A stretch of DNA of 64,000 bases, from NCBI RefSeq assembly GCF_011082085.1, contig NZ_CP041063.1, positions 1,550,001-1,614,000 of the forward strand, in the 5' to 3' direction. Origin of the DNA: Bacillus sp. Cs-700 (GTDB lineage: Bacteria > Bacillota > Bacilli > Bacillales > Guptibacillaceae). Positions within the stretch are counted from its first letter, which is position 1, and each line of letters starts with the position of its first letter. Of this stretch, positions 15,148 through 35,043 are shown in pieces. A program made the translations under genes and the position numbers. A model generated the notes under the pieces. It was not told the origin of the DNA. It did not search any database and worked only from the letters and a program-made list of their open reading frames with translations.

Positions 15148-17169
15148 CTACACGGCTTGCTCAATCTTTTTCCCTTGTTGAAGCTGATACATTTGAAAGT
15201 ACCTTCCTTTTTTCTTCATTAATTGATCATGATCGCCTCGCTCAACGATTTCTCCCTGATGAAGAACGAGAATTTGATCTGCCTCTCTTATTGTTGAAAG
15301 TCTGTGGGCAATGATAAATGTGGTACGCCCCTTTTTCAAAATATCGAGAGCGTTTTGAATAACCATTTCCGTCTCAGTATCAACATTTGAAGTCGCTTCA
15401 TCAAGTATAAGGACAGCAGGATCAAATGCTAACGCTCTTGCAAATGAGATAAGCTGTCTTTGCCCGGAAGAAAGCGTGCTTCCTTTTTCTATAACTGGCT
15501 CATCATATCCGTTTGGAAGCGAACGGAGCAGCTGATCTGCTCCAACATCATTTAAAGCTTTTTCTACTTTTTCTCTTGAAATAGAGGGGTCGTCAAGACT
15601 AACATTTGATGCAATTGTGCCTGTGAATAGAAATGGATCCTGAAGCACAATGGCCATATGCTGTCTCAGTTCTTGCTTTCTAATATCCTGAATGTTTTTC
15701 CCATCAATGGATATTGTCCCCTTCTGATTATCATAAAATCGAAATAACAAATTCATAATGGAGCTTTTTCCTGAGCCCGTGTGTCCAACGAGCGCAATAG
15801 TTTGACCTTTTTTCGCTTCAAAACAAAGATTCTTTAACACATATTCATCTTCTTTATAAGCAAAGGAAACATGATCAAAAGAAACATTCCCTTCATATCG
15901 CGGGAACATTCCATCGGCTACATCTTCTCCTTCTTCATCAAGAAGTTCAAAAACGCGGTCTGCAGCAACCAATGCCTGCTCTAGATTGGCAAGTTGATTG
16001 ACCATGTTTGTGACGGGTTGAAACAATCGATTTAAATAGTCGACGAAAGCATAGAGAACACCAAGACTTATCACCGCACCTGATGTAAGAGAAGCTCCTC
16101 CGAAATACCAAATCAATGCTACAAATGAGATATTCCTTAAAATGTTAACCAGGTTATGAGACATTAAAGAATTTAAATGTAAAAGCTTGTTTTGATACGT
16201 AAAGTGACTATCATTTAATTCTTCAAATTCTTGTTCTGTCATTTGCTGGCGTTTAAAAGCTCTTATGATTGACATTCCTTGAATGGACTCGTTAATCATA
16301 GCATTAATGTCACTCACTCTTGCTCGAATCACTTTATTAAATTTGGAAGCATATTTGCGATAAACAATGATCCAAACAACCAAAAGTGGAACAATGGTTA
16401 ATGTAATAAACGCAAGCTTTACATCCAATAAAAACAAGGCAATAAAGATGCCTGTCATATAAAAGATGCTTGTGAAAAAAGTTGCGAGTACGGTTACATA
16501 AAGCTCACGTATCGCCTCTGTATCATTCGTAATTCTTGCCACTACTTTTCCAGCTGGCAAATTATCGAAGTAGTTGATGTGCAAACGCTGAATTTGCGCA
16601 TAGACATCCGTTCTCATCTTCTGAATGATTCTGTTAGCTGAAGTTTGCAAAAGAAGTCCTTGCCCATATTCAAAAAATGAAGCGAAGACGAGAAGTCCGA
16701 AGTATAATGCAATGAGCCAGATCATCGGTTCAATCTGAGGTTGATAAAAAGCGAGCAGCTCTTCGTTGCTTATCTCTGATGCTCCGTAGGACTGTTGTTG
16801 CCCATCTTTTTCAATAGTGAGCGTATTTTCGTTAATTGATCTTTCACCGTCGAAAGCGATCGGTTCGTCAATGAAGTAATAATCACGTCCGATTTGAAGT
16901 ATTCTTGCCTCTTCTCCTTTTGCTTCATTATCAAAATGATCGCTTCGCTTATACCATGCACCATCATATTGAACAGCGTCTTCCCCTTGATCTGATTCAT
17001 ACCATGGATACTCAATTCCAAGTATATGAACGTCGATCATCCGTTTAGCAATGAAAGGACCAGATAGTTCCGCTGTTACGGCAACTGTTAAAAGTAGAAG
17101 TGCAATTAAAATATTTTTCTTAAATCCAAGTGCATACTTTACTAAACGCTTTCCTACATGTCGGTTCAT
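15148..17169 (-). CDS. bmrD: Heterodimeric ABC multidrug exporter, canonical subunit (BmrD/YheH-like)
   Basis: Half of a type IV ABC exporter that pumps drugs out with ATP. 673 aa, the length of B. subtilis BmrD, with the extra extracytoplasmic insertion (about residues 40-140) after the first helix that marks BmrD. Six membrane helices to about 380, then the ATPase: GHTGSGKSS Walker A, ATP-binding Q-loop VLQDPFLF, signature LSSGQRQ, and Walker B LILDEATS with the catalytic Glu intact. Starts one base after the bmrC stop, with GGAGGTGC as ribosome site. The partner carries Asp in place of the Glu, as in B. subtilis BmrCD. Confidence 0.92.
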   Translation of the reverse strand: MNRHVGKRLVKYALGFKKNILIALLLLTVAVTAELSGPFIAKRMIDVHILGIEYPWYESDQGEDAVQYDGAWYKRSDHFDNEAKGEEARILQIGRDYYFIDEPIAFDGERSINENTLTIEKDGQQQSYGASEISNEELLAFYQPQIEPMIWLIALYFGLLVFASFFEYGQGLLLQTSANRIIQKMRTDVYAQIQRLHINYFDNLPAGKVVARITNDTEAIRELYVTVLATFFTSIFYMTGIFIALFLLDVKLAFITLTIVPLLVVWIIVYRKYASKFNKVIRARVSDINAMINESIQGMSIIRAFKRQQMTEQEFEELNDSHFTYQNKLLHLNSLMSHNLVNILRNISFVALIWYFGGASLTSGAVISLGVLYAFVDYLNRLFQPVTNMVNQLANLEQALVAADRVFELLDEEGEDVADGMFPRYEGNVSFDHVSFAYKEDEYVLKNLCFEAKKGQTIALVGHTGSGKSSIMNLLFRFYDNQKGTISIDGKNIQDIRKQELRQHMAIVLQDPFLFTGTIASNVSLDDPSISREKVEKALNDVGADQLLRSLPNGYDEPVIEKGSTLSSGQRQLISFARALAFDPAVLILDEATSNVDTETEMVIQNALDILKKGRTTFIIAHRLSTIREADQILVLHQGEIVERGDHDQLMKKKGRYFQMYQLQQGKKIEQAV

Positions 17170-18921
17170 TTACAGCACCTCCTTTAGTGAATCTTCAAGT
17201 TGCTGTCTGTCATATTGCTCTCTGTACCAGCCTTTTTGGACAAGAAGCTCCTCATGTGTACCTTCTTCAATCACTTTGCCATCTTCTAGAACAAGAATAC
17301 GATCAGCATGCTTTACACCCGAAAGCCGATGTGTCGCAATAAGCGTCGTTTTACCAGCACGTTCACTTCTTATATTTGCAAGAATTTGTGCCTCTGTTTT
17401 CCCATCCACTGCTGACATCGCATCATCAAGAATAAGAATTTCCGGATCAATCATCAGAGCTCGAGCAATCGAAACCCGCTGCTTTTGCCCACCAGATAGG
17501 GCTACCCCCTTTTCTCCTACAAGTGTTTCAAGCCCTTGAGGAAGAAGATTGACATCTTTCTTAAAATCAGATAAACGGAGGACTTGATCGACATCTTGGT
17601 CAGTTCCATCTTTCTTACCAAAAAGCAGGTTTTCTCGCACTGTTCGAGAGAATAGCATTTGATCTTGCGGAACATACCCAATCCAGCTTTGAAGCGTTCC
17701 AAGCGAAAACTCTTCGATCGGTACATCAGAGATTTTTATTTTCCCTTCGCCTACTGGGTATTCTCTCAACAATTGCTTTAGCAAAGTGGTTTTTCCGCTA
17801 CCAGTTCGCCCAACGATACCGAGCGTTTGACCTTTTTCAAGCGTAAATGAAACATCATTTAAATTTGTAACTGAAGAAGTTGGATACGTAAACTGAACAT
17901 GTTCAAAGGAAATCGTACCAGGAGACTCGTGATGTTTCGGAGCGTGATGGTCCTTCACATCTTCTTCGTGAGATAACGTTTCCAATACCCGATTAAGTGA
18001 GGCGCTTCCACGCTGCATGACATTAATTAGCTCACCAACCGCAATCATCGGCCAAATCAGCATACCGAGATACACGTTAAATGACACGAGTTCCCCTAGT
18101 GTAAGTACATTGTGAAAAACAAGATATGCCCCATACCCTAGACCAATTAAATAACTCATCCCTACGAGAACTTTAATCGTTGGTTCAAATAGGACATCTA
18201 TCTTTGCTACATCAATGTTCTTTCTGTAAACATCTTCTGTTAAATTTTTAAATTTTTGCTGATCCGCTCTCTCTTGTACATAAGCACGCGTAACACGAAC
18301 GCCTGCGATCGATTCAAGTACTTGATCATTCATATGACCGAAAGAATCCTGCGCAGCGGTAAAGCGCTTATGAATAACCTTTCCATAACGGTTCATCGCA
18401 AGAGCCATTAATGGAAGAGGCAAAATAGCGGCAAGCGTTAGTTTCCAGCTAATCAAAACACCCATTGTAACCAATATAAGAAACATAAAGATCGTTGAAT
18501 CAACCAAAGTTAAAATACCGAAACCCGCTGTAAGCGACACGGCTTTTAAGTCGTTTGTTGCTCTTGCCATCAAGTCCCCAGTCCGATTTTTCTCGTAAAA
18601 AGACGGCGTCATTTTCAGAAGATGTTTCATGAATCTAGACCGAAGCATTCTCTCAACTAGAAATGCACCACCAAATAGTTGATACATCCATACATATGTG
18701 ACGAGATAAACGACAATTAATAACGCACCATAAAAAAATAGATAATTCCGTAAACTATCCCAAGTTAAACTTCCTACATTAATTTCATCAATTGCCATCC
18801 CAATTAGCTTCGGCGGAATAACCTCAAGGATCCCACCTAATATCAATAACCCAATTGCAATACTATAACGCTTCCAATGCTGCTTAAAAAACCAGCTTAG
18901 CTTCTGTAAAATCGAGAACAT
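17170..18921 (-). CDS. bmrC: Heterodimeric ABC multidrug exporter, degenerate-site subunit (BmrC/YheI-like)
   Basis: Partner of the downstream BmrD-type subunit. 583 aa: six membrane helices (about residues 15-300), then Walker A GRTGSGKTT, Q-loop YVPQDQMLF, signature LSGGQKQ, and Walker B ILILDDAMSAVD, where the catalytic Glu is Asp. That change is the known mark of the degenerate site in BmrC of B. subtilis. The gene is preceded by a 23-codon leader and two intrinsic terminators (19027-19200), so expression most likely depends on ribosome behaviour in the leader, as reported for bmrB-bmrCD. Confidence 0.92.
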   Translation of the reverse strand: MFSILQKLSWFFKQHWKRYSIAIGLLILGGILEVIPPKLIGMAIDEINVGSLTWDSLRNYLFFYGALLIVVYLVTYVWMYQLFGGAFLVERMLRSRFMKHLLKMTPSFYEKNRTGDLMARATNDLKAVSLTAGFGILTLVDSTIFMFLILVTMGVLISWKLTLAAILPLPLMALAMNRYGKVIHKRFTAAQDSFGHMNDQVLESIAGVRVTRAYVQERADQQKFKNLTEDVYRKNIDVAKIDVLFEPTIKVLVGMSYLIGLGYGAYLVFHNVLTLGELVSFNVYLGMLIWPMIAVGELINVMQRGSASLNRVLETLSHEEDVKDHHAPKHHESPGTISFEHVQFTYPTSSVTNLNDVSFTLEKGQTLGIVGRTGSGKTTLLKQLLREYPVGEGKIKISDVPIEEFSLGTLQSWIGYVPQDQMLFSRTVRENLLFGKKDGTDQDVDQVLRLSDFKKDVNLLPQGLETLVGEKGVALSGGQKQRVSIARALMIDPEILILDDAMSAVDGKTEAQILANIRSERAGKTTLIATHRLSGVKHADRILVLEDGKVIEEGTHEELLVQKGWYREQYDRQQLEDSLKEVL

Positions 18922-19026
18922 TCTTTTCCCTCCAATCTTTTTCCGACCATTGTTTCATTAATCAAAAGCAACCATCACTTCCACCACCCTCAATAGGTTA
19001 ATTCCTTTTCACCATATTTAGAAATT

Positions 19027-19057
19027 CAAAAAGACATAGCCGTATGCGGCTATGTCT
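19027..19057 (-). terminator. Second attenuator in the bmr leader
   Basis: AGACATAGCCG / CGGCTATGTCT perfect 11-base stem with a four-base loop and a run of five T in the bmr direction; about 105 bases before bmrC. Confidence 0.9.
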
Positions 19058-19074
19058 CATCCATTCATTGGACA

Positions 19075-19105
19075 TAAAAAAGGGCACACGTCTAAGACGC
19101 GTGCC
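19075..19105 (-). terminator. First attenuator in the bmr leader
   Basis: GGCACGCGTC / GACGTGTGCC (as read in the bmr direction; one G-U pair) with a three-base loop and six T. It begins 24 bases after the leader-peptide stop codon, close enough for a stalled ribosome to influence folding. Confidence 0.9.
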
Positions 19106-19128
19106 GATTCCTTTTTGTGACAAAGGGG

Positions 19129-19200
19129 TTACTTCCCTGGCAAAGTGCGTCTATGAGTACATGAAATTGGTTGAATTATACCTGTTAAAACATGTCTCAT
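19129..19200 (-). CDS. bmrB: Leader peptide controlling bmrCD (BmrB-like role)
   Basis: Reads MRHVLTGIIQPISCTHRRTL followed by PGK and stop (23 aa), with a strong AAAGGAGAG ribosome site nine bases ahead of ATG 19200 and a sigma-A promoter 40 bases upstream. The two terminators that follow would stop transcription before bmrC unless the leader alters the fold. In B. subtilis the same exporter is controlled by the leader gene bmrB through translation-coupled attenuation. This peptide is shorter than the 54-aa BmrB and not obviously similar in sequence, so the equivalence is by position and mechanism. The HRRTLPGK end is a candidate stall site. Confidence 0.75.
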   Translation of the reverse strand: MRHVLTGIIQPISCTHRRTLPGK

Positions 19201-19238
19201 CACACACACTCTCCTTTACCGTTATTTTTCACTTTGTC

Positions 19239-19268
19239 ATCGTAGCATAATTGTCACAATTTTGTCAA
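19239..19268 (-). promoter_or_regulatory. Sigma-A promoter of the bmr leader transcript
   Basis: On the minus strand TTGACA (19263-19268), 18-base spacer and TACGAT (19239-19244). The spacer contains a second TGTGACAA that partly mirrors the -35, a possible operator. Confidence 0.7.
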
Positions 19269-19273
19269 TATTA

Positions 19274-20320
19274 TTATTTACTTAATGGATTTACACTTTC
19301 TTCACCAGTTAATTCTGCAATCATCTCAACTAACAAATCAATTTCTTCCTGCATGTCTTTTAGACTAACCGTTTCAACTGGCGCATGCATATAGCGAAGC
19401 GGCAAAGATACGAGCGAGATCGGCACGCCGTATCCTGTTAAGCGGAGCTTATCAGCATCGGTTCCTGTCATTCTTGGTGTTAATTCATATTGAAGTTTTA
19501 GATCAAGCTTTTTTGCAGCCTTTTCGAGCAGCTGATTAATTTTAATATTAATAGGAGCACCTTTCGCAAGAACAGGGCCGTCCCCGAGATTAACCTCTGT
19601 GTGTTTTCTTGCATCAATCCCAGGATAATCAGAAGAAAATGTCACATCACAGGCAATGGCCATCGTTGGCTGAATTCCTGCACCAGCAAAGTATGCTCCA
19701 CCCATGTTGGTTTCTTCGTTCACTGTACTAACCGCATATACACCTACCTTAGGATTTCGCTTAGCGAGCTTTCGTAAAACCTCTGCAACAATAAACGAGC
19801 CAGTTCGATTATCTAGACCTCTACCACTAATTCTGTCATTCAATAAGTGCTCAACTTCACGTTTATAGACAGCCAGATCTCCGATTTGAATATACTTTTC
19901 GATCTCTTCTTTTGAAGTTGCACCACAGTCTATGTAAAGATCCTCGAAATTGAATTCTTTTGCTCCACCATGATGTTCAGCATTCACGCCAAATACCCCT
20001 GTTAATTTTCCATGCGTGCCAAGAATCGTTACTTTCATGCCGATAGCAGGTTTATGACTAATACCGCCTAACTTTTCCACACGAATGAAGCCGTCTTGAT
20101 CAATTTTCTTTACCATAAATCCTATTTCATCACAGTGGCCAGCAAGAAGAACTTTAAATTCTGCATTAGGATTAAGAACGCCAATGGCATTTCCTGCATT
20201 GTCTGTTTTTATTTCGTCAGCAAATTCCTTCACATAGTCCATCCATTTATGCTGAATCTCCATTTCAGCTCCCGATGGTGAAGCAGTTGATAACAATTCA
20301 AGTAAAAATTCCTGATTCAT
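19274..20320 (-). CDS. M42 family metallo-aminopeptidase
   Basis: Cytoplasmic di-metal peptidase of the glutamyl-aminopeptidase/endoglucanase-M group (YsdC, YtoP and FrvX relatives), usually forming tetrahedral 12-mers that trim peptides. 348 aa from ATG 20320, chosen because GGAGGTG lies nine bases before it; a longer frame to 20359 would place that site inside the gene. Metal and catalytic residues seen: His62 and Asp64 (AGHCDE), Asp170 (GRGLDNRTG), Glu202/Glu203 (NEET), Asp225 (CDVTF) and His312 (MHAPVE). Single gene, ending next to the bmr promoter. Confidence 0.92.
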   Translation of the reverse strand: MNQEFLLELLSTASPSGAEMEIQHKWMDYVKEFADEIKTDNAGNAIGVLNPNAEFKVLLAGHCDEIGFMVKKIDQDGFIRVEKLGGISHKPAIGMKVTILGTHGKLTGVFGVNAEHHGGAKEFNFEDLYIDCGATSKEEIEKYIQIGDLAVYKREVEHLLNDRISGRGLDNRTGSFIVAEVLRKLAKRNPKVGVYAVSTVNEETNMGGAYFAGAGIQPTMAIACDVTFSSDYPGIDARKHTEVNLGDGPVLAKGAPINIKINQLLEKAAKKLDLKLQYELTPRMTGTDADKLRLTGYGVPISLVSLPLRYMHAPVETVSLKDMQEEIDLLVEMIAELTGEESVNPLSK

Positions 20321-20407
20321 ACGAAGCACCTCCGAATAGTTGATTAGTTCCTTTTTCATTGTATCTTACAGCTAGTCTTCATTCTAGTTTTGGATGCAAG
20401 CTCAATA

Positions 20408-34838: not shown

Positions 34839-34946
34839 ATGATTCTAATTGGCTTGTATCAAGTTAATGGCCATACTACAATTGCTGTTGATCCTCCTCA
34901 CTCACACTGGCGCGGCTTCGGAGCCGTAAGGATGGAAGAGAGGTAG
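34839..34946 (+). CDS. Possible 35-aa peptide inside the orphan transcript
   Basis: ATG 34839 lies ten bases after GGAAAGG and codes MILIGLYQVNGHTTIAVDPP followed by HSHWRGFGAVRMEER. The same frame is open further upstream, where AAGGAG is followed after seven bases by an ATT codon (34812). Not recognised; the coding frame overlaps two predicted hairpins, so coding and structure are alternative or joint readings. Confidence 0.25.
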   Translation: MILIGLYQVNGHTTIAVDPPHSHWRGFGAVRMEER

Positions 34947-35043
34947 GGCTTTCGTTGTTTGAGAGATCAACAGATCTCTATGGTATGTTTACCGCGGCAA
35001 TGAAGGAGTTACTGTTAATAAATAACGATCGTTATATATAATG

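Follow-up and report, generated by a model that had tools for sequence, protein, structure and literature searches.

In trp-type leader peptide attenuation, transcription is controlled through alternating hairpins that are set by ribosome position, and leaders such as ErmCL and MsrDL encode drug-specific arrest peptides. The Rli59 system of Listeria was reportedly the subject of work by Dar et al. in 2016. The bmrB leader of B. subtilis is described, in the sections of Reilman et al. 2014 drawn on here (PMC4191407), as a GTG-started ORF of 53 aa with the regulating terminator inside it, this terminator having been shown by changes at C136 and C140. According to the same sections, bmrCD is induced by lincomycin, erythromycin and chloramphenicol, not by kanamycin or gentamicin, and induction works through the terminator and needs translation of the leader. 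The bmrCD leader has also been used as a reporter of slowed translation (PMC8670375, excerpt). In Listeria, Rli59 lies upstream of lmo1652, which encodes a BmrC homologue (PMC7828314, excerpt), and a review postulates a mechanism in which a small ORF is combined with antibiotic-relieved termination (PMC8079631, excerpt). ErmB has two leader peptides before the resistance gene, a methylase gene that is under translational attenuation (PMC8274638, excerpt).

Here we describe the leader of a BmrCD-type exporter in Bacillus sp. Cs-700. Attenuators that act through the ribosome in front of multidrug ABC exporters are a known kind of element, to which this leader probably belongs. What is new is the comparative picture, which suggests, as far as sequence comparison can tell, that a two-terminator design is the commonest, that bmrB has been misread and that there is a second conserved small ORF (uORF2). 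No mention of a reframed bmrB, of tandem bmrCD terminators or of uORF2 was found in the article excerpts consulted, drawn from a collection with few subscription journals.

The window (the whole stretch of DNA analysed, 64,000 nt) sits in a 4.298-Mb, one-contig genome. The leader element lies between an M42 peptidase gene and a bmrC-like gene, all on the minus strand, and directly upstream of the exporter pair. The features of the locus are as follows.

19274-20359, minus strand: M42 peptidase or aminopeptidase-like gene, upstream of the leader and co-directional with it
19239..19268, minus strand: sigma-A type promoter, with TTGACA at 19268-19263, TACGAT at 19244-19239 and TG before the -10 element
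19201..19217, minus strand: region 1, ribosome site AAAGGAG (19217-19211) and GUGUGUGUG tract, able to pair with region 2
19129..19200, minus strand: leader ORF (uORF1), ATG, 23 codons and TAA; ORF in 14/14 loci of the genus
19139..19152, minus strand: region 2, AGACGCACTTTGCC, spanning codons 17-21; can pair with either region 1 or the T1 5' arm
19083..19105, minus strand: terminator T1, stem-loop of 10 pairs, U-run at 19081-19076
19071..19076, minus strand: UAUGUC after the T1 U-run, weak candidate for a T2 antiterminator strand, pairing with GACAUA at 19056-19051
19031..19058, minus strand: terminator T2, stem-loop of 12 pairs, energy -18.7, U-run to 19028
18958..18975, minus strand: five-codon ORF MVAFD at the place of uORF2 in other families, without the [ED]-x-G ending
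17170..18921, minus strand: bmrC-like ABC half-transporter, 583 aa (PDB 8t1p, YheI, E 4.3e-255)
15148..17169, minus strand: bmrD-like ABC half-transporter, 673 aa (PDB 7m33, YheH, E 1.6e-279)

The preliminary description of this DNA had named a promoter, a ribosome site, a 23-codon leader ORF, two terminators and bmrC, and all of these are present on the minus strand. It had also called the exporter BmrCD-type, which is borne out by the best solved relatives of the pair, YheI (BmrC-like) and YheH (BmrD-like), and by the 65% identity of the window BmrC to the B. subtilis BmrC chain. The distances need slight correction: T1 begins 23 nt after the leader stop codon by measurement (24 claimed), and 106 nt separate the end of the T2 U-run from bmrC (105 claimed). 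The promoter has the form TTGACA-18-TACGAT with 10/12 matches. Promoter-like sites in 1.2 kb were at chance level (3 vs 3.1 in shuffles), so that the call relies not on the scan but on position, the TG and the recurrence of a similar sequence in orthologues of the genus. Terminator-like sites in the same length numbered 4 against 0.6 +/- 0.8 in shuffles, with T1 and T2 having the most pairs among the four. The T1 energy is -16.5 for the core and -19.5 with an A/U extension. The 212-nt leader as a whole folds at -75.3 kcal/mol (z -6.8; 0/200 shuffles as stable).

Like the bmrB leader (PMC4191407, sections used here), the window leader has a small ORF with a ribosome site between promoter and exporter, the same downstream genes and place in the operon, and a terminator with an alternative antiterminator and anti-antiterminator. 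The two differ in that one regulated terminator is described for bmrB and two intrinsic terminators lie between leader start and bmrC here, and in that the 53-aa GTG ORF encloses its terminator, whereas the 23-codon ATG ORF of the window ends before both T1 and T2. Since the terminator-inside-ORF feature of annotated bmrB probably reflects the annotated frame, we file the window leader as a variant working like the BmrB system and not as annotated BmrB. By its description, Rli59 resembles it in the small ORF and in antibiotic-relieved termination before a BmrC homologue. Trp-type attenuation, which PMC4191407 mentions as well, shares the alternation of hairpins by ribosome position, but it senses shortage of one amino acid, whereas the window leader would sense slowed ribosomes and has two terminators. 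The pair of ErmB leader peptides recalls the relatives outside the genus that carry uORF1 and uORF2; it differs from bmrCD leaders in acting by translational attenuation, and the genus of the window is without uORF2.

Region 2 (AGACGCACUUUGCC, 19152-19139) lies in the last third of the leader ORF and has two possible partners. Pairing with region 1 gives a leader hairpin that hides the ribosome site (1:2, -26.3 kcal/mol), and pairing with region 3, the T1 5' arm at 19105-19095, gives an antiterminator that shares a strand with T1 (2:3, about -16.7 kcal/mol). In stall modelling, the front of the ribosome was set 15 nt ahead of the first base in the P-site. The 2:3 pairing then reaches -16.7 to -18.9 kcal/mol with the stall at codons 1-11, -16.3 at codon 12, -10.6 at codon 13 and -6.3 at codon 16, so that the antiterminator is fully available as long as the P-site has not passed codon 11, and little of it is left at codon 16. 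Judged by the size of the ribosome footprint, the 23-nt gap between stop codon and T1 means that a terminating ribosome would cover region 2 and leave T1 free. Equilibrium folding does not account for the switch and was rejected as a model: wherever the ribosome stalls, T1 wins, with P(T1) of 0.99 or more. The switch would therefore have to be kinetic, with the choice made during RNA synthesis.

The leader is probably a transcription attenuator of the bmrCD kind that works through the ribosome and carries two terminators; the attenuator reading of the preliminary description is the best one, in that the competing pairings exist and 2:3 is locus-specific across the order (below). Its parts, energies, conservation and locus-specific 2:3 pairing were computed here; we infer translation of the leader, a kinetic switch, T2 coupling and induction by ribosome-targeting drugs. 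Six segments would pair in two registers: the ribosome site (1), the end of the leader ORF (2), the T1 arms (3 and 4) and the T2 arms (5 and 6). In the off state, 1:2, 3:4 (T1) and 5:6 (T2) would form. A ribosome finishing the leader would cover segment 2, so that T1 forms and transcription stops, and with no ribosome 1:2 would form and T1 as well. In the on state, a ribosome slowed or stalled in about the first 12 codons would cover segment 1 or have passed it, leaving segment 2 free to pair with segment 3 as the latter emerges; T1 would then fail and the polymerase continue. T2 would act as a second lock, which the freed T1 3' arm plus the spacer may open by pairing with the T2 5' arm (4:5), a release mechanism that is partly supported. 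Most likely the leader responds to slow elongation of any kind and does not work through an arrest peptide specific to one drug.

The comparison covered 210 bmrC upstream regions. A bmrC match was present in 271/397 genomes of the order, from which 130 upstream regions were chosen by similarity (14 of the genus, 16 further and 100 further order regions), and 80 named loci were kept of at least 566 candidates. By their last 350 nt, 184/210 regions are unique, and in all 184 the terminators and ORFs were picked by one set of custom scripts. A leader ORF with two terminators is the commonest state, at 125/184, a count that keeps some doubtful T1 or T2 picks (e.g. L036, L040, L067, L075, L183 and L191, also kept in the 55 loci below) and places L147 among the two-terminator regions despite a T1 without a proper U-run. 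A leader ORF with one terminator was found in 42/184 and neither in 17/184. Two terminators, put forward earlier as a special feature of this leader, are thus the usual arrangement. In other orders of the class, a bmrC match was present in 100/161 genomes, and among the 20 regions examined several have two consecutive terminators, with a leader-like ORF (e.g. L236, L239, L249 and L250) or, by the criterion used, without one (L238 and L240).

Across 55 dissimilar two-terminator loci, region 2 fits the T1 5' arm of its own locus (z -9.0, 0/5000 permutations); the control partners, i.e. the T1 3' arm and both T2 arms, gave z 0.9, 1.5 and 2.4. Against dinucleotide-preserving shuffles, 2:3 reaches z -17.3 (49/55 loci). 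The 1:2 ribosome-site hairpin stands at z -10.6 against mononucleotide shuffles and z -10.8 against permutations.

Within the genus (n=14 loci, that of the window included), the leader ORF is present throughout and both hairpins score as terminators in 11/14. The remaining L009, L013 and L014, where the T1 U-run is poor, score for T2 only, and the T2 U-run is kept in 14/14. Four of the ten T1 pairs are lost in two sequences, L013 and L014 as read from the alignment. For T2, 11 cells are changed on both sides (0/500 shuffles), while the number of T2 pairs with changes on both sides, 2, was reached by 333/500 shuffles. Pairing was kept in 92.9% of cells for T1, 93.6% for 2:3 and 90.8% for 1:2, none of them above shuffles, and in 97.6% for 4:5, with 184/500 shuffles as high; the columns are nearly invariant, and within-genus covariation was dropped as support for T1, 2:3, 1:2 and 4:5. 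L013 and L014 keep 13/14 bases of region 2, whereas gaps upstream place them in another frame with other residues, which indicates that these bases are kept as RNA and not as residues.

The B. subtilis group allows bmrB itself to be read again. In B. spizizenii (L150) there is a GTG ORF of exactly 162 nt with C at 136 and 140, and these two bases fall in the 3' arm of the T2-equivalent hairpin; judged by this comparison, the terminator validated in 2014 is the T2 counterpart. The GTG lies 16 nt inside a 23-codon ATG ORF that has an AAGGAGG site and a different frame. In B. tequilensis, B. mojavensis and B. halotolerans, an ATG ORF of 23, 26 and 26 codons, respectively, occurs without the long GTG frame. 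By the criterion used, 14/14 Bacillus loci (L147-L160) have the ATG leader ORF, whereas ORFs in another frame that begin within it and extend beyond the last terminator occur with a GTG start in 2/14 (L150 and L152) and with any start codon in 5/14. The textbook leader peptide bmrB may therefore have been read in the wrong frame. The statement that the window leader is shorter than BmrB and unlike it is not supported: four B. subtilis relatives carry an ATG ORF of 23 or 26 codons in this place, annotated bmrB is a different and poorly conserved frame, and the difference in length looks like an artefact of annotation. Several results in the sections of PMC4191407 used here fit the other frame without proving it. 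A chromosomal BmrB-GFP fusion gave no signal, the start-codon mutant of bmrB also had 5'UTR changes that removed alternative starts or ribosome sites, and codon optimisation of bmrB lowered expression and retained two-fold lincomycin control. Expression was also lower from an untranslated bmrB leader (PMC4191407), as expected if 1:2 forms. Should the 23-codon ORF in the other frame prove to be the working peptide, mutants and recoded constructs in the literature would have to be interpreted anew, and the sensor would become open to direct tests.

T1 and T2 might instead be the ordinary terminators of the upstream M42 peptidase gene, with the leader ORF a product of chance, since that gene is read in the same direction and stops about 170 nt upstream of T1. 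We regard this as very improbable. A promoter-like site stands between the gene and the hairpins, and region 2 shows specific complementarity to the T1 5' arm. Moreover, 46 named loci were scored that combine a leader and one or more terminators with an ORF of >=90 codons within 600 nt upstream (ORFs called mechanically); in 19 of them the nearest such ORF points the other way, and 15 of these 19 have two terminators, so that T1 and T2 are not simply terminators of an upstream gene. That the leader is a ligand-binding riboswitch or is bound by a protein, as its strong structure might suggest, is scarcely to be credited: the switch strand lies inside an ORF that is kept with its ribosome site in 14/14 genus loci, the orthologous bmrCD system needs leader translation (PMC4191407, sections used here), and no Rfam family matches the element. 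The Rfam scan of the whole window at gathering scores gave no match at the leader, and in seven loci searched with E up to 1 three sub-threshold matches appeared, none regarded as related; Rfam kinship of the leader was dropped. Elsewhere in the window, the scan returned a BsrC sRNA match at 34882-34968 on the minus strand (80.3 bits). A search of the genome for a second leader copy found none, the sole non-self match with E < 1 being the opposite strand of T2. A sizeable possibility, on balance improbable, is that T1 alone is regulated and that T2 is a leaky unregulated terminator which just lowers basal expression. In the window, 4:5 amounts to -8.6 with the T1 3' arm and -6.2 with the spacer alone against -18.7 for T2 (GACAUA lying within the T2 5' arm), and some leaders, such as those of Rossellomorea, score for a terminator at the T1 place alone. 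Permutation between loci gave no locus-specific 4:5 signal, with z at -0.1 for the T1 3' arm by itself, at -1.3 once 10 further bases were included and at -1.5 for the spacer. Against dinucleotide shuffles, however, the T1 3' arm and spacer pair with the T2 5' arm at z -7.8 (47/55 loci), with z -3.7 (30/55) for the T1 3' arm alone, z -4.7 (33/54) for the spacer alone and z -0.9 to 0.3 for five control pairings. The coupling is kept as possible because shuffles support it, and the evidence for a second antiterminator that would release T2 is mixed. The steeper switch suggested in the preliminary description would require T2 to be switched as well, and it is unsupported. Against regulation at T1 alone there are also the published regulated terminator, which maps to T2 in B. 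spizizenii (PMC4191407, sections used here), and the three genus loci that score for T2 only.

A further alternative is a drug-specific arrest peptide whose response is tuned to a single class of antibiotic. The argument for it comes from the comparison across families, where the tripeptide [QN][LF][NIV], a class chosen after the peptides were seen, stands 4-5 codons before the antiterminator strand in 33/87 dissimilar loci (1.1 +/- 1.0 in shuffles) and, after the strictest thinning, in 14/44 (0.5 expected). Loci whose duplex was weaker than -9 kcal/mol (18/167) or started after the ORF had been dropped before thinning. The tripeptide is spelled by 13 different codon combinations, and synonymous codons vary; QLN occurs with six different Leu codons. 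A distance of 4-5 codons is about that from the P-site to the front of the ribosome, so that a pause there would just free the antiterminator strand. The window leader, however, does not match the motif (QPI at codons 10-12), and over codons 2-13, where a useful stall would sit, pN/pS is 1.16 among the 11 of 14 genus members with 23 codons. In addition, bmrCD of B. subtilis is inducible by three 50S drugs that differ from one another (PMC4191407, sections used here). We consider an arrest peptide unlikely and, within the genus, where purifying selection on the peptide is lacking, rejected it; the proposal that this leader may sense different drugs is for the same reason unsupported there. For all leader codons in the ATG frame pN/pS is 1.03, and in the other two frames, which are broken by stops in some members, 0.83 and 0.63. 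The substitution pattern of the genus leaders does not mark the ATG frame as coding, and the frame is called from the start codon, the ribosome site and the open frame, not from substitutions.

Outside the genus, the second small ORF, uORF2, occurs just before bmrC in 148/170 unique regions, about 90 to 20 nt before bmrC in, for instance, L032, L045 and L154. It was picked without use of its ending, and the counts keep picks that look spurious, e.g. L107, L126, L150 and L181; a GTG-started frame ending EGG at the uORF2 place of L147, seen by eye, was left out. Its length is 18 or 19 codons in 110/148, and it ends mostly in [ED]-[GS]-G, with Gly last in 137/148 and E or D two residues earlier in 125/148. 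The last Gly codon is unconstrained at its wobble base, with 0.07 bits across 84 dissimilar loci. The stop codon is TAG in 124/148 uORF2 against 27/167 leader ORFs. A role for uORF2 in hiding the bmrC ribosome site was rejected, there being no specific pairing (z +2.1). In the genus of the window uORF2 is missing or eroded, and the MVAFD ORF is possibly, on weak grounds, a remnant of it. An ORF with so conserved an end poses a clean, testable question in many Bacillales.

Taken together, the comparisons allow a fuller picture, which we offer tentatively and, as one joint proposal, at somewhat less than an even chance. The ancestral bmrCD leader of Bacillales would have been a domino switch of six segments that couples two terminators and carries two leader peptides, in which uORF1 provides the pause 4-5 codons before the antiterminator strand (by the [QN][LF][NIV] motif in many lineages) and uORF2 a second, translation-coupled step. 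The lineage of the window would have lost the second stage while retaining the first. Within the B. subtilis group, T2 would be the terminator, T1 mainly a switching hairpin and annotated BmrB the wrong frame.

In L010 and L041, insert-like stretches with inverted ends of the GGCTCTTTTC / GGTTCTTTTCGTA type, seen by eye, lie between T2 and bmrC. These stretches resemble small mobile repeats placed between the attenuator and bmrC.
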